Below are positions 34,075-47,433 of a DNA stretch of 64,000 nt, one piece after another; positions within the stretch are counted from its first letter, which is position 1, and every line of letters begins with the position of its first letter. The stretch comes from Affinirhizobium lemnae (GTDB lineage: Bacteria; Pseudomonadota; Alphaproteobacteria; Rhizobiales; Rhizobiaceae), in the NCBI RefSeq assembly GCF_022968395.1, contig NZ_JALJQZ010000021.1:1-64000 (forward strand), in the 5' to 3' direction. The translations under genes were made by a program, and so were the position numbers. The notes below the pieces were generated by a model, which was given only the letters and a program-made list of their open reading frames with translations, was not told the DNA's origin and searched no databases.

Positions 34075-36573
34075 GTGGATCGGGCACTCGTTGGGCGTGC
34101 ATTCTTGCGTTTTCTCCGCCCTAAAGACGCGACTCAAATCTGGGTGCACTTGGCCGATGCATCTCGGGGGAATAGCTCCTCGTTACAACCCCCAACGCGT
34201 CCGCCATCGAATGACCACTCCGAGCCGCTGGCTGCTGTTGAAAGCAAGGAACTGTGGTACCAGCGCATATGGGCCGAAGAGGTGTCTTTTGGACATGCTT
34301 TCCTGTTTCTGCCCGTCGCTCTGGGCACCGGTGCGGCAATCTGGTTTGCACTTCCGTTTGCACCTCCCCTGGCCCATCTCTGGTTAGCCAGCCTTTTTCT
34401 TGCTGCGGCATGTCTGTTGGGGCGAGCGGGCTATCAAAAGCTGTCACTTGCTGCTGCCATTCCCGGTCTCCTGGCAGGGGGGATGCTGCTTGCCAGATTT
34501 GAATCCGACAGGCTTGCGACAATCATTCTCGATAGCCCAGTCACGACGACTGTGACCGGAGTCGTCGAGCGTCGCGAAGCTGTCGGCGACCAGCGTTGGC
34601 GTTACGTCCTTAACATCCTTGAGACCTCTGGACCGAAACTGAAGCGCGCGCCTGAACGTGTGACGCTCATCGTGCGCGGCAAGACAGACCCTTTGCAGAC
34701 GGGCTCTGTCGTGCGTGGACGCGCGCGATTGACGCCGCCGTCAGGGCCGGCGCTTCCCGGTTTGAGCGATTTCAGCTTTCCGGCCTATTTCGACGGCATT
34801 GGTGCAACGGGCTTTTTCTACGGCAGCCCCGAGATACTGGGTGCTCAGGAAGCAAAAGGGATTTGGCAACAGGCCGTGCAGTTTGCCTTCGCATTGCGCA
34901 GCTATGTCGGTGATCGTATTCGGCAACTCAATCCCGGCGATGAGGGCGCATTTGCGGCTGCCATCGTAACGGATGAACGACGGGCGATTTCGCCACAGGT
35001 CGTGGAGGCTCTGAGGTCATCTGGCCTAGCCCACATCGTTGCCATATCCGGCCTGAACATGGCGCTTGCTGCTGGAATCTTTTTTGTCGGCCTACGAACT
35101 GTGCTCGTTATGCTAACCGGCGTTTCAGCGCGCGTACCTGTCAAGAAGGTCAGCGCATTCGGTGCGCTTCTGATGGTGACGGCCTATTATTGTATATCCG
35201 GCTTCGGCGTATCAGCTGAGCGGGCATACATCATGATGGCGATTTTGCTGTTGGCCATTCTCTTCAACCGCCCTTCGTTGAGTATGCACAACATCGCCCT
35301 GGCGGCGTTGGTGATCATTGTTCTTCACCCATCCAGCGTCATGGGCGCCAGCTTCCAGATGTCGTTTGCTGCGACTGCTGCTCTGCTTGCCTGCTATCGC
35401 ATCTGGGCTGATCGCGCGCATGAGTCTGATCAGGCGCTCGTTTCCGGCTTTTCCGTTCGTAGCCTTATGTCCGGCGTCTCTCGGGTTCTGGCTGGGACTT
35501 TGATGACATCCCTGATCGGAGGATTGGCAACTGCGGCCTTTTCCATTGCGCATTTCAATCAGCTGACTGCCTATGGCCTCGCTGCCAATCTTGCGACCAT
35601 GCCCATCATCTCCCTCATTGTCATGCCTTCGGGACTCATTGGCATGCTTCTGATGCCCTTCGGGCTCGATCAACCGTTCTTCATGATCATGTCTCTTGGC
35701 TTGAAGCTGGTAATCGCGGTCGCGCTGGAGGTGGCCTCTTGGGGTGGAAATATAGAAACGGGGCGTGCCGCAAGCTGGCTATTGCCTGTTGCCACCGCCG
35801 GTCTCGTCCTCTTCTCGCTCTTGCGGACACGACTGCGATGGTTGGGTCTCCTCATTCTTGTGGCTTCAGTTTGTGTCAACGGACTAATGGATCCGTCCAG
35901 ACCCGATCTCATAGTTGCAGAGGATGGAAGAATGGCGGCGCTCTTGAGTGGGACGTCGGCATCCGTCACGACGGAAAGACCATCCGAGTTCGTATTCAAA
36001 CAATGGAAGAACGCGCTAGGCCTTGAGGAGGTCGTGATGCCGATCGTGACGAGGGTAGATATGGGGAAGCGCGAGGCGGCACCAGAGTCAAATCGGACAG
36101 TATCAGGAACGGTTTTAGGCAAGACGCCGCGTCATGCATTAACGAGCAAAGAGATCGCGCTCATCGACCAAGCATTGGCAATAGACCAGTTACCGCCGCT
36201 TCAAAGGCCGCGTTTCTCTTGCGTCAAAAATCTGATTTGCATGGGGCGTAGCCCATCAGGTGCCAGAATCGCGATCGTGGGTGATACACGGCTTACAGGA
36301 TACGCGTGCGACAGGTCAGACCTCGTCATCGTATCCGGCTCGCCGTTTACTCTATGTCGCTCCGGTGCGCTTTTCCTGACGGTGGCAAAGCTGAAGCAGA
36401 CAGGCTCGATCGAAGTATGGTTTAACGGTCAGCCTCATCCTTCTTCCTGGACACTGAAGTCCGCACTTCAGAGCAACGAAAGACCTTGGCAGTTGCACCG
36501 TCTTTACGACTGGCGAACCAACACATTCCAGCCGTTAGACGACGAGACTATCCGTCGACTTCGGGTTCAGTGA
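34075..36573 (+). CDS. comEC: ComEC/Rec2 family DNA-internalisation channel protein
   Basis: An 832-residue polytopic membrane protein. Visible in order are an amino-terminal DUF4131 region with membrane spans (about 75-140), the soluble OB-like part, and the Competence domain (about 295-560, for example [25 protein letters not shown] and [19 protein letters not shown]). The carboxy-terminal metallo-beta-lactamase-like part lacks a recognisable HxHxDH motif, so no nuclease activity is implied. GTG start; the exact start is uncertain. The end overlaps the convergent lexA by 7 bp. Confidence 0.87.
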
Positions 36574-37292
36574 TAGCGCCGAATGAGGCCTACCAGCTTG
36601 CCCTGTACCTTGACGCGGTCTGGCGGGAAGATGCGCGTTTCGTAAGCGGGGTTCGCAGCTTCGAGCGCAATCGATGCGCCTTTGCGGCGGAAACGTTTCA
36701 ACGTCGCCTCCTCGTCGTCCACAAGTGCTACGACAATATCGCCGGGGCTGGCTGTATTGCCGTTCCGAATGATCACCGTGTCCCCATCCAGAATACCGGC
36801 CTCGATCATCGAATCACCTTTGACCTCAAGCGCGTAGTGTTCTCCGGGCCCAAGCATTTCCAAAGGAACGCTGATGGAATGGGTATTGTTCTGAATAGCA
36901 GAAATAGGGACACCGGCTGCAATACGCCCCATAACAGGAACCGATGCGGACTGGCTATCTTCGTCCGAGGCCTTCGACTGCACTGGAGCAGGCGGAGGCG
37001 GCTGAACTTTGCCGAGCGATCCTTCGATGACACTTGGCGAAAAGCCACGTTTCGGTATTGCAGGTGTCACACCGAAGGGCTCCGGCAACTTGATAACCTC
37101 TAGCGCCCGCGCACGATTTGGTAGCCGACGGATGAAGCCTCTCTCTTCAAGTGCAGTAATCAAGCGGTGAATCCCAGACTTGGATGCCAGATCCAGCGCA
37201 TCCTTCATCTCGTCAAACGACGGAGGCACGCCCGCCTCCTTCATCCGTGCATGAATGAAAAGAAGCAATTCGTGCTGTTTGCGTGTTAACAT
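36567..37292 (-). CDS. lexA: SOS repressor LexA
   Basis: A 241-residue repressor and self-cleaving serine protease. The amino-terminal winged HTH ([44 protein letters not shown]) is followed by the latent protease: cleavage site Ala126-Gly127 in RIAAGVPI, nucleophile Ser161 in [10 protein letters not shown], and general base Lys199 in EEATLKRF. All catalytic residues are present. The promoter carries a LexA box (37337-37351), indicating autoregulation. A Mu-like element begins about 50 bp beyond that box. Confidence 0.97.
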
Positions 37293-37336: not shown

Positions 37337-37351
37337 GTTCCATATGTGTTC
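37337..37351 (-). promoter_or_regulatory. LexA operator (SOS box) of lexA
   Basis: The sequence is exactly GTTC, seven bases, GTTC, the direct-repeat box of alphaproteobacterial LexA. On the minus strand it lies between a -35-like TTGCGG (37352-37357) and a -10-like TAGTGT 17 bp further on, ideal for autorepression. Confidence 0.9.
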
Positions 37352-37397
37352 CGCAAGTAGCATCGGGCTTCGGTCTTGGATATGGAGGCGCGAGAAA

Positions 37398-37431
37398 TAA
37401 TCTGGAATAGCGCCGGTCTTTATTCTGGAAT
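37398..37431 (+). repeat. left terminal inverted repeat of Mu-like element
   Basis: Two TCTGGAAT boxes (37401-37408 and 37424-37431) with CCGGTCTTT between them. The reverse complement of 46493-46523 aligns to it with 27 matches over 31 positions and one 3-nt gap: TAATCTGGAAT, then CCGG-x-CTTT, then CTGGAAT. The box spacing of about 22 bp fits adjacent MuA-type binding sites. A third box in opposite orientation (ATTCCAG) is at 37521-37527. The exact terminal base is not fixed. Confidence 0.75.
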
Positions 37432-37611
37432 GAAAACTGCTCTGTTTCGTTGATTTTTCAGCGTTTTTTAGGAGGAAAACGGGGTTCCCAATGCGCCAAT
37501 TGGCCAACTCGTTTTACGATATTCCAGCGGAAACATTAAATAACTGATTTCTATGGATTTATTGAGGACATCAAGTCGTTGTCAGTGAGATACTGTGAGA
37601 GATTGAGGACC

Positions 37612-38187
37612 CTATTGCGGACCTTCCTTCTTACGTCGCTCGGCGCGGTTCTCTATTGCGTTGACAAAGTGGGGCAGATCAGTGCGGAAGGCCTTGCGCG
37701 CGTAGTCATTGAAGGACGCTTCGTCCATCTTTCCGCTATCCAGTAGGGCGCGTCTTTCGTGCCTTATTAGGGCCAGCGTGCGCAAGATTGACGCGCCTAA
37801 GCTCTTCCCGTGCTCGGAAAGTTCCTTTTCATCCATAAAGGCAAGTTCTTGGTCCGCAAACTGCCCTAAAACGGAAACGATTATACTCTCGCCCGCAATC
37901 TCAAAGTCTTTAATGCGAAGATCATCGAACTGAAACATCTCAACAAACTCATCCCCACTCAACGAAGGACGATCTTCGCCAAACAGAAAATAGTCAATTC
38001 GACGATTCGTTTCTTCAGATATTTGAAGAATTGCTTCTATCGGGATTGAGTTCCGCGAACGCCAAGACGAAACCGTTTTATTGGATACTCCAAGATGCGT
38101 AGCTAAGTGCGCGTCGGTGCCAATACCGGATGCTGATTTCATCCTCTCCAGAATTTCAGGCACTTTCAGGGACGCTGGCTCACTCAT
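37612..38187 (-). CDS. phage CI-type repressor
   Basis: A 191-residue DNA-binding protein, with start chosen at the third in-frame ATG (38187); 38199 and 38193 are alternatives. The amino-terminal domain VPEILERMKSASGIGTDAHLATHLGVSNKTVSSWRSRNSIPIEAILQISEETNRRIDYFLFGE fits the bacteriophage CI repressor HTH family. No Ser/Lys self-cleavage motif is visible in the carboxy part, so it is not clearly a LexA-like protease; induction may differ from lambda. It is divergent from the early genes, with operator-like repeats between. Confidence 0.8.
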   Translation of the reverse strand: MSEPASLKVPEILERMKSASGIGTDAHLATHLGVSNKTVSSWRSRNSIPIEAILQISEETNRRIDYFLFGEDRPSLSGDEFVEMFQFDDLRIKDFEIAGESIIVSVLGQFADQELAFMDEKELSEHGKSLGASILRTLALIRHERRALLDSGKMDEASFNDYARKAFRTDLPHFVNAIENRAERRKKEGPQ

Positions 38188-38206
38188 GAACATATCCATC
38201 TACGAA

Positions 38207-38264
38207 ATGCGGACATAGCCGCTTGACATCTGCATTATGCGGACATACGGTCTGCATAATGCAG
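38207..38264 (+). promoter_or_regulatory. operator/early promoter region of Mu-like element
   Basis: Direct repeats ATGCGGACATA at 38207-38217 and 38237-38247, and a perfect 11-bp inverted repeat (38230-38240 with 38254-38264, CTGCATTATGC/GCATAATGCAG). A TTGACA -35 box lies at 38223-38228, with a weak TACGGT -10 (38246-38251) 17 bp later, driving the early plus-strand genes. The repeats also abut the repressor start, so both promoters can be controlled. Confidence 0.7.
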
Positions 38265-38286
38265 TTTTATCAGGGTGGACTTCGAA

Positions 38287-38499
38287 ATGAAAGCCGAATC
38301 CAAGTCGCCATCTAAAGAGCTACTCGTACGTGTAAGGGCAGAATTTGTTCTTCAGAGCTCGTCTTTTAATGCTTGGTGCAGAGCGAACGGAATAGTTCGT
38401 CGCACTGCCGAACAGTCGCTTAGCGGGGAAATTCAAAGCGACAATGCCAAGCGGCTCGTCCAGATGATATTGAACGCAGTCGAGCGACAGGCGGCTTAA
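38287..38499 (+). CDS. small phage DNA-binding regulator (Ner-like position)
   Basis: A 70-residue protein from ATG 38287 (a GTG at 38275 is the alternative). The core RAEFVLQSSSFNAWCRANGIVRRTAEQSLSGEI looks like a short HTH with a conserved WCR-x-NG turn seen in small regulators next to Mu-type transposases. It occupies the place of Mu Ner, directly after the early promoter, and its stop touches the next ATG. Function by position and motif only. Confidence 0.6.
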   Translation: MKAESKSPSKELLVRVRAEFVLQSSSFNAWCRANGIVRRTAEQSLSGEIQSDNAKRLVQMILNAVERQAA

Positions 38500-38775
38500 A
38501 TGGCTGAGTGGCTGACGGCGGATGTGTTTGCTGATGTGGTGGGGATATCGTCTCGCAAGGCTCGTCGCGCTCTTTCGTTGTCCTACTCTGGACAAGTGTG
38601 GAGAGGCCACGCTCTTGAAGTCCGTACCTTCCACGGTCGCGGCGGTCGGTCTGGTATTCAGTATCAGGTCAAGGTTTCCAGCCTTCCGCCGCACCTTCAA
38701 GAGCGTTTGAAGGCCCTTCAAATGACCGATGAAGCCGTTTCAAGGCTTCGTCTTGGCGATGACGGCTCGGTTTGA
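38500..38775 (+). CDS. Mu transposase amino-terminal DNA-binding domain, separate ORF
   Basis: A 91-residue protein resembling the MuA domain I-alpha winged helix that binds the internal enhancer: EWLTADVFADVVGISSRKARRALSLS, then WRGHALEVRTFHGRGGRSGIQYQVKVSSLPPHLQERL, the phrase that usually leads on into the rest of MuA. It stops at 38773-38775, 17 bp inside the catalytic ORF, which lies in the +1 frame. It could be a real subunit, a programmed-frameshift product or a frameshift mutation. Confidence 0.75.
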   Translation: MAEWLTADVFADVVGISSRKARRALSLSYSGQVWRGHALEVRTFHGRGGRSGIQYQVKVSSLPPHLQERLKALQMTDEAVSRLRLGDDGSV

Positions 38776-40504
38776 AAGGGCATGGAAGTACGACATTATC
38801 AAAGTCGCTCTGGACCATCCGAAGGGCAGCGGTGAACGCAAGGCTGAAATCGACAGGCTTCACGGTACGCAGCGTCTCGACTGGACCGGACATTACCGGA
38901 CGTTGACCCGCTCCACCCTTTATAGCTGGATCGAGACATACGAACTGGAGGGCATCCACGGCCTTGCGCAGAAGGTGCGCCGGGACAAGGGAAACCGCAG
39001 AGTTTACATCAGCCTTGCGTGGATGAGTGCGGTTCCGTTCGATGATGCGACGATGGCGACGATCCACCGAGATATCAAGCAGCATGTTCGGGGTCTGATC
39101 AAGGGTGGCGGTCAATTCAAGCAGACCCGCGTTCTGACAGCGGAGAAGCTCAAAGAAATCAGCGCCGCCTACGGCTTCACCTGCCAAGACGAGCGCGTGT
39201 TCGCGATCCCGCAGGCATTCGTCCAGGAAGAGCACCATTTTAAGGCGGTGTATCGCCATAAGGCAGATCGGAAGGCCAGCGAAGACAACAAGCCGCGCAT
39301 CCGGCGAACCTCCGCCGACCGCATGCCCATGGAGATTGTCGTCATGGACGTTCACCATCTGAACATTCATGTCCGCCGCGATGACGGGACCTATTCCACA
39401 CCAAAACTGATCGCTTTCCATGACATAGCGACGAACCGGGTATTCTGCGAGCTGATCCAGTTCGACAACCGAGGCGGCGTCCGCAATGCAGATATCATCA
39501 CTGCCTTCGTCAATATGTGCCAGCATCCGGCCTTTGGCGTCCCGCAGTTCCTCTATGTCGACAACGGTTCGGAATACCGCTTCGCTGACGATCTCGAAGA
39601 CGCCTTGCGCCTTGGGGCAACTATTGGAACGTTTGATGGCAGGGAAGAGCGTAATCGCATCATCCGTGCGAAGGCCTACAATGCGGCGGCGAAACATGTC
39701 GAAGGCTGGTTTCGCCAGTTCAACCAGCAGCATGCACGGCATATCAAGGGCTGGCGTGATGACGATCCAATGAACCCGAAACGCCCTCAGCTTGGCAGGC
39801 TCCACGATCCATATCCGCATGGCTTCGATGCGTTTTGCGCAGAATTTTTCAGTCATCTGACGGCATATGAGCACATGCCGCAAAAAGGGCAGCTAAAAAC
39901 CTCACCTGCGCTCGCATTCATGGCGCATGTAAACAATGGTTGGAAGGCGACAGTTTTGAACTCCGATCAGCTTCTGACAGTATTCACGAAGCCGGAACCA
40001 CGCCTTGTCGAGAAACATGGCATCAGCATTCGCAATGTTCCTTGGACATGCGATGGTTTGCTTGAATTCTTCGGGCGCAAGGTGATCGCTCACGTACCGA
40101 AATATCACGGCTTTGCCGAACTGCTCATCACAGATGAGCACGGCAACGAAATAGGTATCGCCGTCGCTGATCAGGTCTTCGACGTACTGGATGAACGTGG
40201 CGCGAAGGAGAGCGCTCGCAGGAACGTGGTTCGCAACAAGGCTATTGCCAAGCTCGGCAAGTCGGTTCCGGACATTGATGTAGGCGCGGAACTGATCGCC
40301 TTCGGCCAAAAGCACTTGCCTGTCATTCCGAATGAGCCGGATGGGACAATTTCTGTCACCCGACCCGGATCTCAGCGGCGGGCAATTCCGCCCGTCGCCG
40401 TTGAGATTAATGCTCGCCAGAAGCGGGATGAAGAGCTTCGGCAACAGAACAGCGAAATGTCCGCAATTCTCGCACAAATGCGTCTAACTGGAAGAGGCAT
40501 ATAA
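38759..40504 (+). CDS. Mu-like transposase, catalytic part (DDE)
   Basis: A 581-residue DDE transposase from the ATG at 38759. The RNase-H-fold acid triad is complete: D197 in VVMDVHH, D268 in LYVDNGSEY and E315 in KHVEGWFRQFN (spacing 71 and 47; Mu has 67 and 56). Upstream of it, residues 1-170 correspond to the end-binding domains; the tail (about 520-581) would be the MuB/ClpX-contacting domain and ends in a charged coil (INARQKRDEELRQQNSEMSAIL). The enhancer-binding domain is in the preceding ORF. Its stop overlaps the MuB start by one base. Confidence 0.9.
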   Translation: MTARFERAWKYDIIKVALDHPKGSGERKAEIDRLHGTQRLDWTGHYRTLTRSTLYSWIETYELEGIHGLAQKVRRDKGNRRVYISLAWMSAVPFDDATMATIHRDIKQHVRGLIKGGGQFKQTRVLTAEKLKEISAAYGFTCQDERVFAIPQAFVQEEHHFKAVYRHKADRKASEDNKPRIRRTSADRMPMEIVVMDVHHLNIHVRRDDGTYSTPKLIAFHDIATNRVFCELIQFDNRGGVRNADIITAFVNMCQHPAFGVPQFLYVDNGSEYRFADDLEDALRLGATIGTFDGREERNRIIRAKAYNAAAKHVEGWFRQFNQQHARHIKGWRDDDPMNPKRPQLGRLHDPYPHGFDAFCAEFFSHLTAYEHMPQKGQLKTSPALAFMAHVNNGWKATVLNSDQLLTVFTKPEPRLVEKHGISIRNVPWTCDGLLEFFGRKVIAHVPKYHGFAELLITDEHGNEIGIAVADQVFDVLDERGAKESARRNVVRNKAIAKLGKSVPDIDVGAELIAFGQKHLPVIPNEPDGTISVTRPGSQRRAIPPVAVEINARQKRDEELRQQNSEMSAILAQMRLTGRGI

Positions 40505-41268
40505 TGATCCGCCCTGACCACTTTCCAAAGTCCATCGTAGAGACGGAAACCATACGCATGGTCCGCGAAGCCGCCCTGTTAAGTCTTGAGTTGCATCGGC
40601 CCGTTCGCCTAATCGGTCCGCCAGGTACGGGTAAAAGCTGTGCTCTGTGGCAGGTAGCTAACGAAATGGGAGGTAGCTATTGCGAAATCACCGCCGGAAC
40701 TAAAAAGACAAAATCGATGCTTGAATTGCTCCTATTCAGCATCGGTGTAAAGAGCGGAAAGAATTACGCCAGCGATATTGAAGAACTTGTCTATTATCAT
40801 TTTCGAGGAAATGATGAGTTTATTGACGGAGAATGGCGAACTCTCCCGCGTCTACTTGTGGTCGATGAGGTGCAAACTCTGGAGGTGACCGCGTTCCGAG
40901 AACTGCTTCGGGTTCAGGAGCGGTGTTCAATTGGACTGGTTTTGGCTGGTAACAAAGAACGGCTCGCTGGCGGCAAGAACGATGCGGATACGCTTGAGCA
41001 GATCAATAGCCGAATATTGCCGCCTTGGCATTTGCCCGGGCCGACCAAGCGTGATTGTGAACTGATCGGCTCAACTTTCAATGTCGAGGGAACGGATGCT
41101 TACTCTGTTCTTACCGCCTACGGAACGGCGACCAATTTTCGCGCACTCGTTCATCTTCTCGAATTTGCACAACGTCTTACTGCTGGAGCAGTAGGCATCC
41201 GGCGTGAGCATTTGGAGAAAGGTTTGAAGTTTTTCAAACCCAAATCCGAAATCCTAAAATTGCTTTAG
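40504..41268 (+). CDS. MuB-like transposition ATPase
   Basis: A 254-residue AAA+ ATPase that captures target DNA and activates the transposase. Walker A GPPGTGKS (about residues 38-45), Walker B LLVVDEVQ (about 117-124), a sensor-like GLVLAGNKE, and an arginine-finger candidate in INSRI are present. It is shorter than Mu B (312), lacking most of an amino-terminal HTH region, as in many alphaproteobacterial Mu-like elements. ATG overlaps the transposase stop. Confidence 0.88.
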   Translation: MIRPDHFPKSIVETETIRMVREAALLSLELHRPVRLIGPPGTGKSCALWQVANEMGGSYCEITAGTKKTKSMLELLLFSIGVKSGKNYASDIEELVYYHFRGNDEFIDGEWRTLPRLLVVDEVQTLEVTAFRELLRVQERCSIGLVLAGNKERLAGGKNDADTLEQINSRILPPWHLPGPTKRDCELIGSTFNVEGTDAYSVLTAYGTATNFRALVHLLEFAQRLTAGAVGIRREHLEKGLKFFKPKSEILKLL

Positions 41269-41319
41269 CCCGAAGCGGCCTGATCACCGCTTTCTAAAAG
41301 TTCACATCATCTGAAACCT

Positions 41320-41355
41320 GAAGCTTCGCACCTTTGTGCGGCGTAGGCGAAGCTT
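41320..41355 (+). repeat. hairpin with GAAGCTTCGCA / GGCGAAGCT motif, copy 1
   Basis: A perfect 9-bp inverted repeat AAGCTTCGC (41321-41329) / GCGAAGCTT (41347-41355), just before the next gene. The 11-mer GAAGCTTCGCA (41320-41330) recurs at 45984-45994, and GGCGAAGCT recurs at 46049-46057. Confidence 0.7.
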
Positions 41356-41377
41356 TGCCAAAACGGAGAAGACTGAA

Positions 41378-41749
41378 ATGACGATAACCCGCACTCAAAC
41401 TTACAATGGAAAAGGTGATCTTTTTGACGGTCTGGAGAACTCGATTAGCGCGATCAAAGCAGCAGCAGCGTTGATTGAAATTGCGCTCCGGCGAGAAGAA
41501 TCGCTGAAGCAGGAGGCGCATGGCGTCTGGTGCTTGATTAAATCCCAGTGCGATGATGCCGAATTCTTCACCAGCGCGCTCACAGATGAGATGAGGAATA
41601 TCGAGCGGAGTAAGCTTTCAATCCGTGATCCAAAGGAGATCGCAGCTATGACGGCGCTGCCAACTCATATCGTATGTTCGGTTGTCCACGCGGCAACCGG
41701 CGTGTTGTTGGGTTCCTGCGCACCGGAGTGGAGAAAGCAAGATGCCTGA
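41378..41749 (+). CDS. hypothetical protein of Mu-like element
   Basis: A 123-residue protein from the ATG at 41378 (GGAG at 41365-41368). No known domain recognised. It has an amphipathic helical centre (LENSISAIKAAAALIEIALRREESLKQEAHGVWCLIKSQCDDAEFF). Its end overlaps gemA by 8 bp, so it belongs to the early operon. Confidence 0.7.
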   Translation: MTITRTQTYNGKGDLFDGLENSISAIKAAAALIEIALRREESLKQEAHGVWCLIKSQCDDAEFFTSALTDEMRNIERSKLSIRDPKEIAAMTALPTHIVCSVVHAATGVLLGSCAPEWRKQDA

Positions 41750-42182
41750 TATCGCCTTGTCTGCCACCATCACCAAAAAGCAGATCGCACTTCTTCACGT
41801 TGCCAAGCGCGATCTCAATCTTGATGACGATACGTACCGGGCGATTCTTGCCCGGTACGGAAAGGTGGAAACAGCCGCCGAACTAGACTTGGTCGGCTTC
41901 AACCATGTCATGCGGTACATGACGGCATGTGGCTTCCGTTCAACCTGGACGAAGCGAACCTATGGCTATCGGCCCACTATGGCAACGCCGCCTCAGATTG
42001 ATCTCATTCGCTCACTCTGGGTTAAATGGCGCGGCGCCGATGACCCCGATGATGCAGAACTTAACAAGTGGCTTGGGCGCTTCCACAAGGTCGGGGCATT
42101 GCGGTTCGTTGACAACAAAAAGGCGGCGAAAGTGATTTCGGCACTCAAGGCGATGCTCGCTCGCCAGCAGGATCGAATTTGA
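41742..42182 (+). CDS. GemA-like regulatory protein (DUF1018)
   Basis: A 146-residue protein matching Mu gp16/GemA: KKQIALLHVAKRDLNLDDDTYRAILARYGKVETAAEL, then TPPQIDLIRSLWVKWRGADDPDDAELNKWLGRFHKVGALRFVDNKKAAKVISALKAML. GemA in Mu modulates host gene expression and DNA topology in early lysogeny. The start is the ATG at 41742; the longer frame upstream is out of context. Confidence 0.88.
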   Translation: MPDIALSATITKKQIALLHVAKRDLNLDDDTYRAILARYGKVETAAELDLVGFNHVMRYMTACGFRSTWTKRTYGYRPTMATPPQIDLIRSLWVKWRGADDPDDAELNKWLGRFHKVGALRFVDNKKAAKVISALKAMLARQQDRI

Positions 42183-42190
42183 AGGCGTTT

Positions 42191-42268
42191 TGAAGGCCGT
42201 GGAAGGCGGATGGCGGGATTTCCGCACACAGTAACATCCTGTGTATTCGTCGCGTTCCACGGCCTTCA
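42191..42268 (+). repeat. nested inverted repeats between gemA and membrane-protein gene
   Basis: A perfect 14-bp outer stem (42191-42204 with 42255-42268, TGAAGGCCGTGGAA/TTCCACGGCCTTCA) encloses an inner stem ACACAG (42226-42231) / CTGTGT (42239-42244). There is no U-tract, so it is not a standard terminator. Candidate RNA structure or protein-binding site. Confidence 0.7.
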
Positions 42269-42318
42269 GGTGGATGTTTCGACTCCACAAAGATTTTCAC
42301 TTCTGCGAACTTGCTAGG

Positions 42319-43122
42319 ATGCGCTATCTGAAACTCATCCTTGAATTCGCTTTTCGGCGCTCGCTGATGCGCATCGACATTTATGCCGCCGTTTTAACGG
42401 CTATTGGGCCTGCATTGTTTTTCGCGGCTGGCCTTACTATCCCTCCCGATTTGACAGTCTATATCTCGCTTGTGGTCGCGGCCATGGTTGTGGCGACCTT
42501 GATCCTGCGAGTTATTTCTGCGCCCTATTTTATCTGGAAGGCGGATCAAGCGGAGATTTTGCGCCTGAACGAAGAACTGGCATCTCCGCAACGGCATGCG
42601 CGAAAGGCGTTAATGGAGCAATTCGCGACAGAGAAATTTCAGCTTCTTCGACAACTCATGCGCATAAAAGGCGATATGCGCGCATACAATGATGCGGCGC
42701 AGATTGGCGAGCAGACTGCAAAAAGCCTCTATCCCTTCGCACAGCCATTCCTTTTAGACACCAAATTCAAACGTTACTGGTTTACGTTCGAGAAAAACAT
42801 GAAGGCTCTCTCAGCGCTTCATGCTTGGCGCAAGGCGAATAGCCCTCTCGAACGCGAAAATGAGGCTCGCCTCCTCAAACGCTTCGGTTTTCACCACATG
42901 CTCGCAATCGGAGCGGTAGACGCGATGATGCTCCATCTCGCTTCTGAGAAGGAAGGGGCAAAAGCAGCTCACGACAAGGCACTAGTCGACGCTGAAGAGT
43001 GGTGTTCGCCTGTAGATTTCACATTCGCGCTCCCGGCTGCCGCGAATTGGGATGAAATCAATTTTTATCATAGCGATGAAGAGCCGATAGCCCATCCCAG
43101 CATGGGCCACACAAAGATATAG
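42319..43122 (+). CDS. two-helix membrane protein of Mu-like element, unknown
   Basis: A 267-residue protein if started at ATG 42319; ATG 42274 or GTG 42241 would add up to 26 residues and overlap the upstream stem. Two hydrophobic helices lie at about residues 20-40 and 47-66, followed by a long charged soluble part (DQAEILRLNEELASPQRHARKALMEQF) rich in helix. No family recognised. It occupies the place where Mu has lysis or accessory genes, but no holin or endolysin feature is clear. Confidence 0.65.
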   Translation: MRYLKLILEFAFRRSLMRIDIYAAVLTAIGPALFFAAGLTIPPDLTVYISLVVAAMVVATLILRVISAPYFIWKADQAEILRLNEELASPQRHARKALMEQFATEKFQLLRQLMRIKGDMRAYNDAAQIGEQTAKSLYPFAQPFLLDTKFKRYWFTFEKNMKALSALHAWRKANSPLERENEARLLKRFGFHHMLAIGAVDAMMLHLASEKEGAKAAHDKALVDAEEWCSPVDFTFALPAAANWDEINFYHSDEEPIAHPSMGHTKI

Positions 43123-43480
43123 GGTAGGGTAAAGGTTGCTTTACCTGGCCTAAAAGTCGCGTTACTTTGGGTTGCGTGGCAGCGAAGTCCGTTGTCCTAG
43201 ATGACCATTGGTGGGAGCCGGGTAAAGGCCCGGATGCGGTCCCGCCCTGCCACGCGCTCACTGTCAAAACTTGCCAAGGCTGACACCTGTCAGGGACTGC
43301 CATTTGTCAGCCCACTGCTATTCGTTTTGTTGCGGCAAACACGGTGTGCTCGGCACTGCTTGCCTGAATGCAGTGTGGTGAGCATATGGTCAAAGATCAA
43401 TTTTTCGAAGTCTGCTTATCCTTGCTGTTGGTTATTCCACCAACCGCACGAGCATCCGCTCGCAAGATCGGTAGCTTTTG
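43123..43480 (+). other. hairpin-dense non-coding region before Mor-like gene
   Basis: A 358-nt gap without a credible gene. Stems read by eye: 43128-43134/43139-43145; 43174-43182/43247-43255 (9 bp) enclosing 43210-43216/43240-43246 and 43218-43222/43229-43233; 43278-43285/43305-43312 (8 bp) with a competing 43280-43285/43288-43293; 43427-43432/43439-43444; 43449-43453/43458-43462. It may be the leader of the mor-T-I operon or an independent RNA. Confidence 0.55.
43174..43255 (+). ncRNA. candidate structured RNA in Mu-like element
   Basis: An 82-nt unit closed by a perfect 9-bp stem (GCGTGGCAG/CTGCCACGC). Inside, a 7-bp stem (GGTGGGA/TCCCGCC, one G-T pair) is topped by a 5-bp CCGGG/CCCGG hairpin. 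Overall size and a terminal stem recall a tRNA, but no T-arm or anticodon arm can be drawn. Transcription is not known. Confidence 0.4.
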
Positions 43481-44092
43481 ATGTCGATCGTTTCGCGGAA
43501 GACCGCTGATAAGAAGCGACCTCTTGTATCGTTTGTTGGCGATAAAGACGATGATCGTCGGTTCACGGTTTTCAACCAAATCAGAGAGACACTTGGCGAC
43601 GATGAAGCCTTGGAGTTGGCAAGTATATGCGGTGGCGAACGTCTGCGATTGCCATCCCTCAGTAGCTTGAAACCTCATCACCCCTTGGCCGTGAGGATCG
43701 GTTTCGATCTTGCGCATAGAATTTGCGAGGCGGTCGCACCATTCAAGGGAACCACAGGATACTTTTATGTCCCCAGATTGGACCGCTTACGAATACGGCG
43801 GCTTCTTGAAGAGGACGGAGTTTCTGTACGCGAAATTTCGCAACGGACTGGTGTCTGTATGCGTACCGTTCATCGTGAAAAGGCTCGGATGCTCAATTCT
43901 GGCTTCGCGGTAGGCCACCCTAAACAACCACGGAAACTGGATCAACTGCCAGAGTGGACCAAAGGCGAGAGGATAGTTCGCCGCTTGCTCCTGCAAGGTC
44001 ATAGTCCTTCGCAAATTCGCGACATTCTCAAAGTGCCCGGAACGGTCGTGCTGACAATCCGGGCGGAACTCCTCAAACAAGGTAAAATCTGA
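43481..44092 (+). CDS. Mor-like transcription activator with two HTH segments
   Basis: A 203-residue protein. The middle part resembles the Mor/C activator family of Mu: CGGERLRLPSL, then RIRRLLEEDGVSVREISQRTGVCMRTVHREKARML as HTH. An additional carboxy-terminal segment (ERIVRRLLLQGHSPSQIRDILKVPGTVVLTIRAEL) looks like a second HTH, making it longer than Mor (129 aa). In Mu, Mor turns on the middle promoter. Its stop overlaps the capsid gene start (TGATG), so activator and capsid are made from one coupled message. The family call is moderate. Confidence 0.65.
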   Translation: MSIVSRKTADKKRPLVSFVGDKDDDRRFTVFNQIRETLGDDEALELASICGGERLRLPSLSSLKPHHPLAVRIGFDLAHRICEAVAPFKGTTGYFYVPRLDRLRIRRLLEEDGVSVREISQRTGVCMRTVHREKARMLNSGFAVGHPKQPRKLDQLPEWTKGERIVRRLLLQGHSPSQIRDILKVPGTVVLTIRAELLKQGKI

Positions 44093-44982
44093 TGCTGATC
44101 AGCAAGGAAAATCTCGATCTCGTCTTTAAAGGCTTCAAAACGATCTATACAGAGAGCTTTGACGCCACTCAGAGCTACAAAGACACTCTGGCGATGACGG
44201 TAAACAGCAACACCAGCGAAGAGCAATATGGCTGGCTCGGGCAGTTCCCTGACCTTCGCGAATGGGTTGGCGACCGTCAAATCAAGGAACTGGCAGCCCA
44301 CGGCTTCAGCATCAAGAACAAGAAGTTCGAAAGCACCGTGAAGGTGAAGCGCGACGATATCTCTGATGACAAGGTCGGCATTTATAAGCCGATGGTGCAG
44401 GAGATGGGCCGTGTTACGAAAATCCACCCGGATAAGCAGCTATTCTCCCTTCTGTCTTCCGGCTTCTCGACTTTGTGTTTCGATGGTCAGAACTTCTTCG
44501 ACACAGACCATCCTTATGCCCGAACCGAAATGGTGACCGAGTCGGTTTCCAACATGCAGGCCGGGACGGAACCGGCTTGGTTCCTGCTTGATCTGTCCAA
44601 GGCAATGAAGCCGATGATCTGGCAAGAGCGTGAAAAGTACGAGTTCCAATCGCTCACAGACCCGCATGATTCTCGCGTGTTCATGACCGATGACTACGTC
44701 TACGGCATCCGCGCCCGCGTGAACTGTGGCTTTGGCCTGTGGCAGCTCGCGTTTGGTTCAAAGGGCGAATTGTCGGCGGCAAACTATGCTGTTGCACGTC
44801 AGGCAATGGCAGCATTTGCCGGGGATCGCGGCCAGAAGCTCGGGATCACGCCTACGCACCTGGTCGTACCTGCAACGCTGGAAGCGAGGGCGCGAACTCT
44901 GCTGCTTTCCGATCAGATCGAAGGTTCTTCCAATATCTGGAAGGGAACCGCTGACCTGATCGTTACGCCCTGGCTGAGTTAA
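44092..44982 (+). CDS. Mu-like major capsid protein gpT
   Basis: The 296-residue protein aligns end to end with Mu gpT (305 aa) by eye: TVNSNTSEEQYGWLGQFPDLREWVGDRQIKELAAHGFSIKNKKFE, DGQNFFDTDHP, YGIRARVNCGFGLWQLAFGSKGEL, THLVVPATLEARA, and the terminal DLIVTPWL. It has an HK97-type fold by family. No truncation is visible. It is coupled to the activator gene upstream and followed 11 bp later by the protease gene with AAGGAG. Confidence 0.92.
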   Translation: MLISKENLDLVFKGFKTIYTESFDATQSYKDTLAMTVNSNTSEEQYGWLGQFPDLREWVGDRQIKELAAHGFSIKNKKFESTVKVKRDDISDDKVGIYKPMVQEMGRVTKIHPDKQLFSLLSSGFSTLCFDGQNFFDTDHPYARTEMVTESVSNMQAGTEPAWFLLDLSKAMKPMIWQEREKYEFQSLTDPHDSRVFMTDDYVYGIRARVNCGFGLWQLAFGSKGELSAANYAVARQAMAAFAGDRGQKLGITPTHLVVPATLEARARTLLLSDQIEGSSNIWKGTADLIVTPWLS

Positions 44983-44993
44983 GGAGCACGTCC

Positions 44994-45917
44994 ATGCAGG
45001 TTTTCAGTGGAGTTGCCACCCTGTCTATTCAACCCACCAGCGGCACCGCGCCATTGTGGATTAAGCTTGTTCCACGAGGCAAGTTTGATGGCAGGGACGG
45101 TCGAGCATTTGACGCCTCCCCCGAAACTCTTGTCGAGCGGTTCAAGTCTGACGGTATCCCTATTCCAGTGGACGTGGACCATGCCACGGTGAAGAAGGCG
45201 GCGGTCGGTGATCCGGCTCCTGCCGTTGGCTGGATCGAAGAGCTTGAGGCTCGCGATGATGGTCTTTGGGGGCGTGTTAGCTGGCTACCTGAAGGTGAAA
45301 GGATATTGGCGGAAAAGACGCACCGCTTCATCTCGCCCGCTCTTTCTCTGGACAAGGTCACCGGCAAAGCCATCTGGCTACACTCTGCATCCTTGGTGGC
45401 CGCACCTGCCGTCGCGATGGCCGTATTGGCGTCGGCTGATACCAGCCATAAGGAGCCGCTCACAGTGTTCGAGAGCAAGATAGCCGCCGCTCTGGGATTG
45501 AACCTTGACGCGACTACGGAGGAGATTGCTTCCAAGGTCGCCACGCTTACCGCGAAAGCGGATGGCACTGAGGCCATCATAACCGGCCTTCAAGGCGTCA
45601 TGAAAACCCTTTCAACAGAGGTTATAACGGCGCGAAACAGCCGCGTAGAGGCCAAGGTTGAACAGGCGATCAAGCTCGGCACGGTAACGCCAGCATTGAA
45701 AGACTTTTGTATCACCATCGCAAATTCCAGCGCGTCGCTCTTCGACGAGTTTTGCACAAAGATGGGAACGCCATTCGCCTACCTTTCGCAGCCTGCAATC
45801 ACTCGCGAGATGGAAGCTGCTGCAAAAGGCTTCACGGCTGCGAAGCCAGAAACATTAAACACTGATGCGCATCGACTAGCGGCACAGCTTGGACTCGATC
45901 CGAAAGCCCTGCTTTAG
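44994..45917 (+). CDS. Mu-like phage protease/scaffold gpI
   Basis: A 307-residue protein of the Mu gpI family, the prohead protease whose carboxy part acts as scaffold. Seen: LWIKLVPRGKFDGRDGRAFDASPETLVERFKS, IPVDVDHATVKKAA, PAVGWIEELEARDDGLWGRVSWLPEGERILAEKTHRFISPAL, and a helical carboxy half (about 150-300). Mu gpI is 361 aa, so this is somewhat short. In Mu the protease gene comes before gpT; here it comes after it. Confidence 0.88.
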   Translation: MQVFSGVATLSIQPTSGTAPLWIKLVPRGKFDGRDGRAFDASPETLVERFKSDGIPIPVDVDHATVKKAAVGDPAPAVGWIEELEARDDGLWGRVSWLPEGERILAEKTHRFISPALSLDKVTGKAIWLHSASLVAAPAVAMAVLASADTSHKEPLTVFESKIAAALGLNLDATTEEIASKVATLTAKADGTEAIITGLQGVMKTLSTEVITARNSRVEAKVEQAIKLGTVTPALKDFCITIANSSASLFDEFCTKMGTPFAYLSQPAITREMEAAAKGFTAAKPETLNTDAHRLAAQLGLDPKALL

Positions 45918-46107
45918 CTATCAAGCACAAAGGATGCTCGCCCATTTTCTACCCACCACGGATGTACTGGGGGTAGGATTCTCGAAGCTTCGCAAATCCC
46001 CGTTGACGAGGCTTCGAAACCGGCTTGAACGTGAGCCAACATATTCCCGGCGAAGCTCGCCGCCGCTGCTTCGTCGGGGATATATCACTTAGGGAAGGAT
46101 TACTGGT
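45918..46107 (+). other. structured intergenic region with GAAGC motifs, copy 2
   Basis: Stems TCGAAGC/GCTTCGA (45982-45988 with 46011-46017) and an 11-bp stem (46046-46056 with 46068-46078, one G-T) with an 11-nt loop. The 11-mer GAAGCTTCGCA (45984-45994) and GGCGAAGCT (46049-46057) repeat the pair found at 41320-41354. No gene recognised. Confidence 0.6.
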
Positions 46108-46422
46108 ATGGCACACGATCTGGAAAAATGCGAACAGTGTGGCAAACTCGCTGTATCTGGTGAAACAGTCACGATTTCTGTTAGCGAGTACGAGCGCCTG
46201 ACAAGAGCCGCCGCGGTGCAGCGCATTAGTTCGTATCGTGCAGTATCTCGCTCAGGAATCGGCCTTAATCCACCATTGGCAGAGTTCATTCTGGAGCGGG
46301 CGAAAACGATGACGATGGCGAAACTGCATGAGGCGTGCGTGGAGCGTTTCGGTGCCGATGCGCCATCAGCTTCATCCATTTTCCGTTTTGTCCAAAAAAT
46401 GAGAGGACCGTTACATCCGTGA
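46108..46422 (+). CDS. small Cys/HTH protein of Mu-like element
   Basis: A 104-residue protein. A CEQCGK pair near the start could bind metal. The carboxy half, LAEFILERAKTMTMAKLHEACVERFGADAPSASSIFRFVQKM, looks like an HTH of the kind used by small phage or transposon DNA-binding proteins. It is the last gene before the right inverted repeat. Function unknown; a role in end binding or packaging is possible but unproven. Confidence 0.6.
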   Translation: MAHDLEKCEQCGKLAVSGETVTISVSEYERLTRAAAVQRISSYRAVSRSGIGLNPPLAEFILERAKTMTMAKLHEACVERFGADAPSASSIFRFVQKMRGPLHP

Positions 46423-46492
46423 TTTCGGCTGCCTTCGTGGGATATTGAAATGAAGCGGATAAGCTTGAACAATCCTGCAAAATATCGGTCTA

Positions 46493-46523
46493 ATTCCAGC
46501 AGAAAGCCCGGAATTCCAGATTA
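46493..46523 (-). repeat. right terminal inverted repeat of Mu-like element
   Basis: ATTCCAG boxes at 46493-46499 and 46513-46519 on the plus strand, with AAAGCCCGG between them. Its reverse complement matches the left repeat at 27 of 31 aligned positions with one 3-nt gap. The distal terminus is within about 20 bp beyond 46523; a CA at 46537-46538 is one candidate. Confidence 0.75.
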
Positions 46524-46593
46524 GTGGTTACATACACATCATACAAATAATGTTCCTTTGACGGAAAATTCTGTCTCTGAGCCAGGAAAATCA

Positions 46594-47433
46594 ATGTTTG
46601 CTGAAATCGATCATCTCGTCTTGCCTGTCGAATCGCTTCGAGTGGCACGTGCGCGACTGCTTCAACTGGGATTCCAGGTCGAGGCTGAAGCAAAACATCC
46701 TTTTGGAACCTCGAATGCCTGCGTTTTCTTTTCTGACGGAACGTATCTGGAGCCTCTTGCCGTTTCGGATGAAGCGGAGGCTGCTGCAGCAATAGCTGCG
46801 CAAAACACGTTTGTCGCCAGGGACCGGCGCTTTCGCCTTAGCAGCGGAGGCGAGGGACTTTCTGCCATCGTTCTCAAATCGAAGGATGCCGAACGTGACC
46901 ATGCTTACTTTCTAGAACATGGAATCGGCGGCGGTCCACGACTTGATTTCTCACGCGAAGTTATTGGGGGAGATGGTTTAGTAAGGACGGCGGCTTTTCG
47001 TCTCGCATTTGCAGATTTGGGTTCAGAGCATTTCTTCGGTTTCGTTTGTGAACGATTGAACGCGTCGGCCTTGCCTTCGGGACTTGGGACGGCGCATCCA
47101 AATGGGGTTCAGGGGGTGTCGCGTCTGCTGACGTCGGGCTGCACCAATCAACAATCAATGTATGTTCTTGGTCGTTTTTTCGGAACAGAACCCGTTGCAA
47201 CCGGCAGTGTATTCTCATTTGTGTTGAAAAACGCGAGCATAATCTTGCGGCCCGCCGAACCGGAGTCTGGCATCACGGCAGACGCAATCATATTCCATGT
47301 TGCAGATCTTGAATTAACTGCCAGTCTTTTTGATCGTGCTGCGGCAGCCTATCAGCGTGATGGCCGGAGACTGATTGTGTTGCCAGCCGTCGGCCAGGGC
47401 GCCACATTAGTATTTGAAGAGAAGGAGAAATAA
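46594..47433 (+). CDS. VOC family protein (glyoxalase-like domain)
   Basis: A 279-residue protein from the ATG at 46594 (AGGA upstream), preferred to a TTG at 46558. It begins MFAEIDHLVLPVESLRVARARLLQLGFQVEAEAKHPFGTSN, the first beta-alpha-beta module of a VOC fold of the Glyoxalase_3 type, and has a second module near FHVADLELTASLFDRAAAAYQRDGRR. Substrate unknown. It lies just outside the Mu-like element, whose insertion may have changed its promoter. Its stop overlaps the next ATG. Confidence 0.8.
   Translation: MFAEIDHLVLPVESLRVARARLLQLGFQVEAEAKHPFGTSNACVFFSDGTYLEPLAVSDEAEAAAAIAAQNTFVARDRRFRLSSGGEGLSAIVLKSKDAERDHAYFLEHGIGGGPRLDFSREVIGGDGLVRTAAFRLAFADLGSEHFFGFVCERLNASALPSGLGTAHPNGVQGVSRLLTSGCTNQQSMYVLGRFFGTEPVATGSVFSFVLKNASIILRPAEPESGITADAIIFHVADLELTASLFDRAAAAYQRDGRRLIVLPAVGQGATLVFEEKEK

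Follow-up and report, generated by a model that had tools for sequence, protein, structure and literature searches.

How does a Mu-type element that carries a transposition set, and from the morphogenesis genes of a phage only a capsid and its protease, come to lie beside lexA? The element occupies positions 37383-46538 (9,156 bp, with TG...CA ends) of the window, by which we mean the whole stretch analysed here, the first 64,000 nucleotides of Affinirhizobium lemnae contig NZ_JALJQZ010000021.1. Between its left end and the LexA operator of lexA there are 31 bp, and most of its relatives are placed in a similar way. As an explanation of the whole we favour, with moderate confidence, a group of operator-targeted transposons of Mu descent that carry exchangeable virion genes and lead a satellite-like or phage-interfering life.

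An earlier note, made from the letters alone, had placed the element at 37398..46523, described repeats at both ends and concluded that it is not a one-sided fragment; this is borne out, the ends lying slightly further out. Each end has two CTGGAAT iterons, at +20 and +43 on the left (TGGAGGCGCGAGAAATAATCTGGAAT) and at +20 and +40 on the right (read inward, TGTGTATGTAACCACTAATCTGGAAT). The outermost 26 bases of the two ends agree at 16 positions, chiefly in TAATCTGGAAT, and the iteron motif is also present in the ends of relatives. In order, the genes encode a CI-type repressor (minus strand), a small helix-turn-helix (HTH) protein, the N-terminal and catalytic parts of MuA, a MuB-like ATPase, an orf133-type protein, GemA, a 293-aa protein, a Mor-like activator, gpT, gpI and the product of a last gene. 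The transposition set named by the note (MuA in two parts, MuB, GemA, repressor) is recognised by Pfam or PHROGs; its gene list is correct but incomplete, lacking the orf133 type, the 293-aa protein and the conserved last gene. It had also seen only gpT and gpI of the morphogenesis set, and indeed no terminase, portal, tail or lysis gene is recognised by Pfam or PHROGs in the 12 open reading frames (ORFs) of the element. That no ORF is broken holds for T and I but not for MuA, which is split in two here and forms a single ORF of 666-709 aa in all seven relatives aligned. Split or interrupted MuA genes also occur in L086/G032, L117, L140 and L156, and the window copy, with its MuA in two ORFs, may no longer be self-mobile.

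Relatives of this element are patchily distributed. T is present in five of the 57 genomes of the genus; its loci in G031, G043 and G037 and one in G036 (Rhizobium sp. SL86) lie in Mu-like prophages with a portal gene, the first three with a terminase as well (three additional T places of G036 stand outside that reading). SL86 also has a compact element at the same lexA site, with the order I-T-Mor and a one-ORF MuA. With the MuA pair as query, matches were found in 3 of the 57 genus genomes and 17 of 394 family genomes. At E <= 1e-50 the family yields eight matches besides the window: seven adjoin lexA, and the other (L097, in G173) adjoins a pair of overlapping LexA boxes, next to which lies lipB. 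When one genome per species was scanned, 91 relatives were returned and 79 loci kept. The compact alphaproteobacterial elements make up a clade of the MuA tree in which no locus bears TerL, the large terminase subunit. The 38 loci of this clade were picked by hand from the tree, with L086, L117 and G175 added; one of its elements (G071) has both CI and HTH genes. The earlier note had proposed a search for the same gene order in relatives, and compact elements do exist in other genera, but the orders I-T-Mor and Mor-I-T also occur. In a tblastn search of 50,697 phage records, the MuA of SL86 found three weak partial matches, all in BalMu-1. Among viral contigs a two-row MuA alignment found no relative and an eight-row alignment found 52; terminase genes are present in about half of the 23 that were annotated (L193-L215), among which there is one complete compact element, L193.

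The placement of these elements is the central observation. The motif GTTC-N7-GTTC is given as that of alphaproteobacterial LexA in the accessible portion of PMC3323433, and the copy at 37337..37351 is the only one in the 64-kb window on either strand. Among the 35 clade loci with a readable left flank (1.1 kb left of MuA), all found through MuA alone, 24 have a LexA box, five a dif-like site (L092, L096, L103, L112, L138) and six neither; L086, L094 and L132, with too short a left flank, were dropped, and G032, with lexA and its box on a separate contig (L064), stands outside this tally. The left neighbour is lexA in 17 loci (the window, L079-L083, L085, L087, L088, L093, L101, L119, L145, G396, G175, G071, G032) and recA in six (L089, L090, L098, L100, L102, L122). 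Box and candidate left end are 24-49 bp apart in 18 of the 23 loci for which this was measured, a set without G071 and G032 in which ends were called by motif and by eye, with two candidates each in L083, L085 and L090; dif-like sites lie about 20-40 bp from the left end, by eye. The orientation of insertion is constant, the left end being towards the box.

Controls gave a different picture. From the density of boxes, the chance of one in a 61-bp stretch is expected to be about 0.0014, and random 1.1-kb stretches of the same loci contain a box in 3.2% and the dif pattern in 0.67% of cases. No box was found in the 400 bp to the right of the last gene (0/14), nor in the 2.6 kb left of MuA in TerL-bearing loci (0/11, eight of them in Alphaproteobacteria; L146, with a flank of 107 bp, was excluded). 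Nearly random insertion, as in a complete Mu-like phage, is not what the box and spacing counts describe, and we regard the targeting pattern of the clade as well supported by these comparisons. A metagenomic viral contig found by MuA alone, L193, encodes RecA in its left flank (recognised in the translation by eye), and a box lies between this gene and an element that carries genes for CI, HTH, MuA, MuB, Mor, I, T, a decoration protein, a tape measure and the last gene. On its sequence, it is an independent case of the placement rule, at recA. Outside the clade, a betaproteobacterial element (L136) is found at lexA, where the box is of the E. coli type, and L124 and L147 lie near dif-like sequence. 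A Tabrizicola locus (L108), to the left of which lies an imuB-like (IMS) gene, was considered as a further SOS-site locus; with no GTTCN7GTTC found and only a partial MuA, it was left uncounted.

Insertion at lexA is not an old event passed down with the host. In two close relatives with LexA 95-96% identical (G031, G022), lexA stands next to the glyoxalase-type gene with no element between them, and of 30 lexA loci of the genus inspected by eye only those of the window, G032 and G036 have one. The window and SL86 are 89% identical in LexA and 54% in MuA; for SL86 and Phyllobacterium the values are 74% and 69%. Grouping the MuA proteins of the window and SL86, which belong to the same genus, is rejected by the approximately unbiased (AU) test (p = 1.8e-9; the group was named after the tree was seen). 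Vertical inheritance at lexA is rejected in view of the patchy MuA (3/57), the empty sites, the mismatch of LexA and MuA and the AU test. Since close relatives have empty sites and MuA rejects the grouping of two elements of one genus, these sequences indicate that insertion at lexA has happened repeatedly.

The dif-like pattern occurs in exactly one copy in each of the genomes of L096, L103, L112, L138 and L147, and has no match in those of L092, L124, G000 (the genome of the window) and G036. Because of their form, which we take to be that of dif, and their single copy in five genomes, we infer that these are true dif sites. The Methylobacterium group has elements of both kinds: L101 and L145 lie at lexA, and L096, L103, L112 and L138 have their left end beside dif-like sites. 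These last four group together in the MuB tree, with a support of 100 in the Shimodaira-Hasegawa-like approximate likelihood ratio test (SH-aLRT); the MuA data reject this grouping (p = 3e-7), just as MuB rejects the one seen in MuA (p = 3e-10). In Mu itself MuB is the target-capture protein. Since it is MuB, and not MuA, that groups the four elements at dif-like sites, the trees are suggestive of a MuB-like protein that selects the target. The last gene was also tried as a TniQ-like selector, and its structure model has no PDB match at E <= 0.001.

What the elements carry varies more than where they lie. Cargo genes sit between GemA or Mor and the element end; in loci other than those named here this region is cut by contig ends or not resolved. 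T and I are carried by the window element, L079, L080, L083, G071 and L090, as well as by L193 and, outside the clade, L121. Other members have a phrog_1005 capsid and a phrog_976 protease (L085), a phrog_1005 capsid (L084, tested for the capsid only), a phrog_976 protease (L097, tested for the protease only), a Mu-type I with a phrog_1005 capsid (L087), a fused protease-capsid (L122), T with a tape measure (L092, L093, L119, L132), T with fibre J and gp31 (G396), or I with a tape measure and no recognised capsid gene (L089, L099). The lexA-site elements L081 and L082 have no recognised virion gene; each has two last-gene paralogues, plus accessory genes on the minus strand. No Mu-type TerL or portal is labelled in the 38 clade loci within the available sequence, Mu-type families being the ones modelled. 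In the T tree, the T genes of compact elements are interleaved with those of phages, yet compact-only groups exist; this suggests capture of capsid genes on more than one occasion, with exchange. Defence-type genes are found in L080 (PDC-S31) and L138 (SIR2/PDC-S25 and AlbA).

The gpT of the window is full length, and its model (mean predicted local distance difference test score, pLDDT, 76.5) has an HK97-type fold, with template modelling (TM) scores, by query length, of 0.85 to the JBD30 procapsid and 0.74 to the Mu capsid; the top matches are capsids of Mu-type phages, with encapsulins ranked lower, and gpT models as a Mu/JBD30-type capsid. The genome of the window has two further T-I loci. 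One, C31 (G000:C31; L004 13312-18442 and beyond), lies by eye between leuC and dapF and has a tail-assembly-type ORF, a tape measure, Mor, a T 97% identical to that of the window, I and a homologue of the last gene, its transposase being only a 194-aa MuA-like ORF. The other, C69 (L006 15114-17044), has I and an ORF that corresponds to T in its C-terminal half only; by eye it is close to a predicted-looking tRNA and TGTCAAAATTCCGG-type repeats. The dN/dS check of intactness that the earlier note had suggested, made between the window and C31 copies, gave 0.095 for T (dN 0.020, dS 0.21) and 0.19 for I, values which indicate that gpT is under purifying selection.

How might such an element live? 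In the model that we propose, compact Mu-family transposons would insert in one orientation, mostly some 25-50 bp from the site of a host DNA-binding protein, the usual site being the LexA operator of lexA or recA and, in some members, a dif-like site. The MuB-like ATPase would most likely choose the target, through contact with LexA (or XerC/XerD) or with the DNA bound by them, so that LexA could act as a beacon; MuA would then join the TG...CA ends at the target. Between the GemA/Mor regulators and the last gene there would be a small exchangeable set of virion genes, often capsid and protease, with defence-type genes in some members. Mor would turn on the capsid genes once the cell is induced, whether by a helper phage or by DNA damage, and the virion products of the element would remodel or poison the virions of the helper. 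Judging from gene content, a satellite-like or phage-interfering role is probable, and the window element is without the virion genes needed for particles of its own. Among the three ideas of the earlier note (a capsid-forming satellite of Mu type, an encapsulin-like domesticated unit, a prophage with one clean internal deletion) the Mu-type satellite fits best. One may speculate, tentatively, that these elements are a new class of satellite that moves by Mu transposition, with LexA (or XerC/D) as a landing beacon read by a MuB-like protein, and that waits at the SOS switch until its capsid, protease or tape-measure genes can re-tool the virions of induced helpers.

Several observations weigh against the picture of targeted, satellite-like transposons. 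The six loci with neither box nor dif-like site are L084, L105 and the Mesorhizobium loci L091, L095, L106 and L117, the last four with only MuA and MuB recognised. In five of the 23 measured loci (L088, L093, L097, L100, L102) the left end is unclear or much nearer the box, and the spacing between box and end varies from locus to locus. L097 and L099 have a box and no SOS gene that can be named; RecA was sought in their left flanks, and in those of L084 and L105, and not found. Target-site duplications are not visible at the window element (flanks GGATA / TCATA), nor by eye at the ends of L079, L081 and L082. The argument from MuB is one swap, with groups named after the trees were seen. At C31 and C69 no SOS site is recognised. 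The Mu-type portal PF06074 is absent from the genome by a profile search that was positive in six of eight other genomes (G031, G036, G043, G037 and G172, and G105 weakly; G071 and G320 gave no match) and gave no match in 14 standard control genomes.

It is possible that these are defence elements, in which virion genes serve as decoys or poisons against infecting phages and no satellite packaging takes place. The defence-type genes of L080 and L138 point this way; odd pairs such as protease and tape measure make little sense for the building of a shell, and there is no resident Mu-type portal in the genome. However, GemA and Mor have been kept, which fits a phage-like programme of induction. 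Random insertion, after which only copies at safe intergenic sites upstream of lexA and recA survive or are selected, for example for SOS-coupled expression, also runs against targeting, and we consider it unlikely. The sites are intergenic, the lexA promoter is left in place, and the missing duplications and varying spacing would agree with it; but each genome offers many equally harmless intergenic sites, and the counts at LexA boxes and dif-like sites (24 and 5 of 35), the left end facing the box, and the empty right sides and TerL-bearing loci all speak for targeting.

A remnant of an ordinary Mu-like prophage, in which T and I would be the chance survivors of one internal deletion that took the genes for packaging, tail and lysis, is improbable, even though all structural genes are of phage origin, compact-element T is interleaved with phage T, MuA is split here and C69 has a shortened T. 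Both ends are present, T and I are intact and under purifying selection, and the order Mor-T-I is unlike that of Mu. A single clean deletion is not supported: several genera have similarly built compact relatives at lexA that differ in gene order and head genes, and two close relatives have an empty site; among the loci examined there was no full prophage of the same lineage with a single deletion junction, compact relatives being found instead. Least probable is a domesticated, encapsulin-like shell unit inherited by the host, which would suit the T-I pair here (capsid and protease without packaging genes, purifying selection on T, an HK97-type model) but does not suit the clade, because some members have no recognised capsid gene beside their protease and tape measure (L089, L099) or no recognised virion gene at all (L081, L082), quite apart from the patchy MuA (3/57 genus genomes) and its phylogeny unlike that of the host.

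Table 1. Features of the element and its flanks in the window
Feature	Position	Strand	Basis or remark
lexA, host gene left of element	36567..37292	-	PF00717 + PF01726
LexA operator GTTCCATATGTGTTC	37337..37351	+	31 bp from element left end
Left end, TGGAGGCGCGA...	37383..37442	+	CTGGAAT iterons at 37402 and 37425
CI-type repressor	37612..38199	-	PF07022
Small HTH protein	38275..38499	+	phrog_925, phrog_15281
MuA N-terminal part, separate ORF	38500..38775	+	phrog_310; aligns with N-part of one-ORF MuA of G036 (profile match)
MuA catalytic part, DDE residues	38729..40504	+	phrog_310, alignments
MuB-like AAA ATPase	40504..41268	+	phrog_296, PF13401
orf133-type protein, common to some relatives	41336..41749	+	local profile
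GemA; true start may be further in	41682..42182	+	PF06252
293-aa protein, no family assignment	42241..43122	+	no significant match in Pfam, PHROGs, PADLOC
Mor-like late activator	43478..44092	+	phrog_836
gpT, major capsid protein	44092..44982	+	PF10124 across whole model, 413 bits; predicted structure against JBD30 and Mu capsids
gpI, head maturation protease	44994..45917	+	PF10123, phrog_328
Last gene, kept in relatives: CxxC motif and helical C-terminal part	46108..46422	+	local profile, alignment, structure model
Right end, inward TGTGTATGTAACC..., two iterons	46479..46538	-	CA at 46538
Glyoxalase-type host gene right of element	46558..47433	+	PF13468

Some further relatives deserve mention. 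Three Sphingomonas-type loci outside the clade (L120, L198, L210) have portal, gp30-type and tape-measure genes, with no TerL label within the stretch. The Mesorhizobium relatives, L094 as well as L091, L095, L106 and L117, have only MuA and MuB recognised; some lie near defence-type genes (an ABC-3C domain in L106), and close MuA matches are found on Mesorhizobium plasmids (H44-H47). In Chelativorans (L088, the same as L073/L072; G373), MuA-MuB-GemA at lexA is followed, by eye, by an apparent type I-C CRISPR-Cas locus with an array. In Rhodovulum tesquicola (L105), there is a gene for a reverse transcriptase to the left of CI.

With Mu-like phages (Mu, RC1, JBD25/JBD30, vB_RhkS_P1) the window element shares MuA/MuB, GemA, Mor, a CI-type repressor, TG...CA ends with subterminal repeats, and homologues of gpT and gpI. 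Unlike these phages, which have 36-40 kb, it has 9 kb, no recognised terminase, portal, tail or lysis gene, and a place at an SOS operator; in its head genes T precedes I, whereas in Mu I comes before T. Other phage satellites use integrases, and the element differs from P4, the phage-inducible chromosomal islands (PICI) and their capsid-forming kind (cf-PICI) in its Mu-type transposase. It resembles these satellites, and the pair AH14a/AH14b as the available part of PMC4936722 presents it, in being small, with phage-type regulators and few virion genes at most. Among the titles and abstract openings listed in literature searches, none describes a Mu-like element targeted to lexA, SOS or dif sites, or living as a satellite. 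Small transposons that keep and exchange pairs of capsid and protease genes across bacterial families would make a case for a use of virion genes without packaging machinery.

Two families of transposons come closer in their targeting. Insertion sequences (IS) of the IS1202 family target dif/pdif, according to the part of PMC10132070 at hand, with same-orientation insertion near dif, a DDE transposase and TGT/ACA ends, and their transposase is suggested there to meet XerC. Some clade members likewise show same-orientation insertion near a dif-like site by a DDE transposase; unlike the IS1202 family as described in that part (1.5 kb, one gene, 5-bp target duplications), the clade is multigene and Mu-type, lies mostly at LexA boxes and has no visible duplications. 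Tn7-like transposons, in the accessible text of PMC10293859, have in common with the clade a transposase with an AAA regulator (TnsB/TnsC, relatives of MuA/MuB) and an oriented mode of insertion close to a conserved gene. As whole words, lexA, recA and dif are absent from the main text of that paper. Unlike these transposons, the window element has Mu-type phage regulators, and among its 12 ORFs there is no Pfam match to TniQ/TnsD. By analogy, the clade would work like a Tn7-like targeted transposon in its oriented insertion, without being a member of that group. The claim of targeting is directly testable, as both lexA and recA are conserved genes that are easy to assay. Near-random insertion is the textbook behaviour of Mu; a clade of Mu descent that returns to LexA operators or dif-like sites would offer, beside the targeting of Tn7 and of CRISPR-associated transposons (CAST), a natural system for the specificity of MuB-type ATPases.

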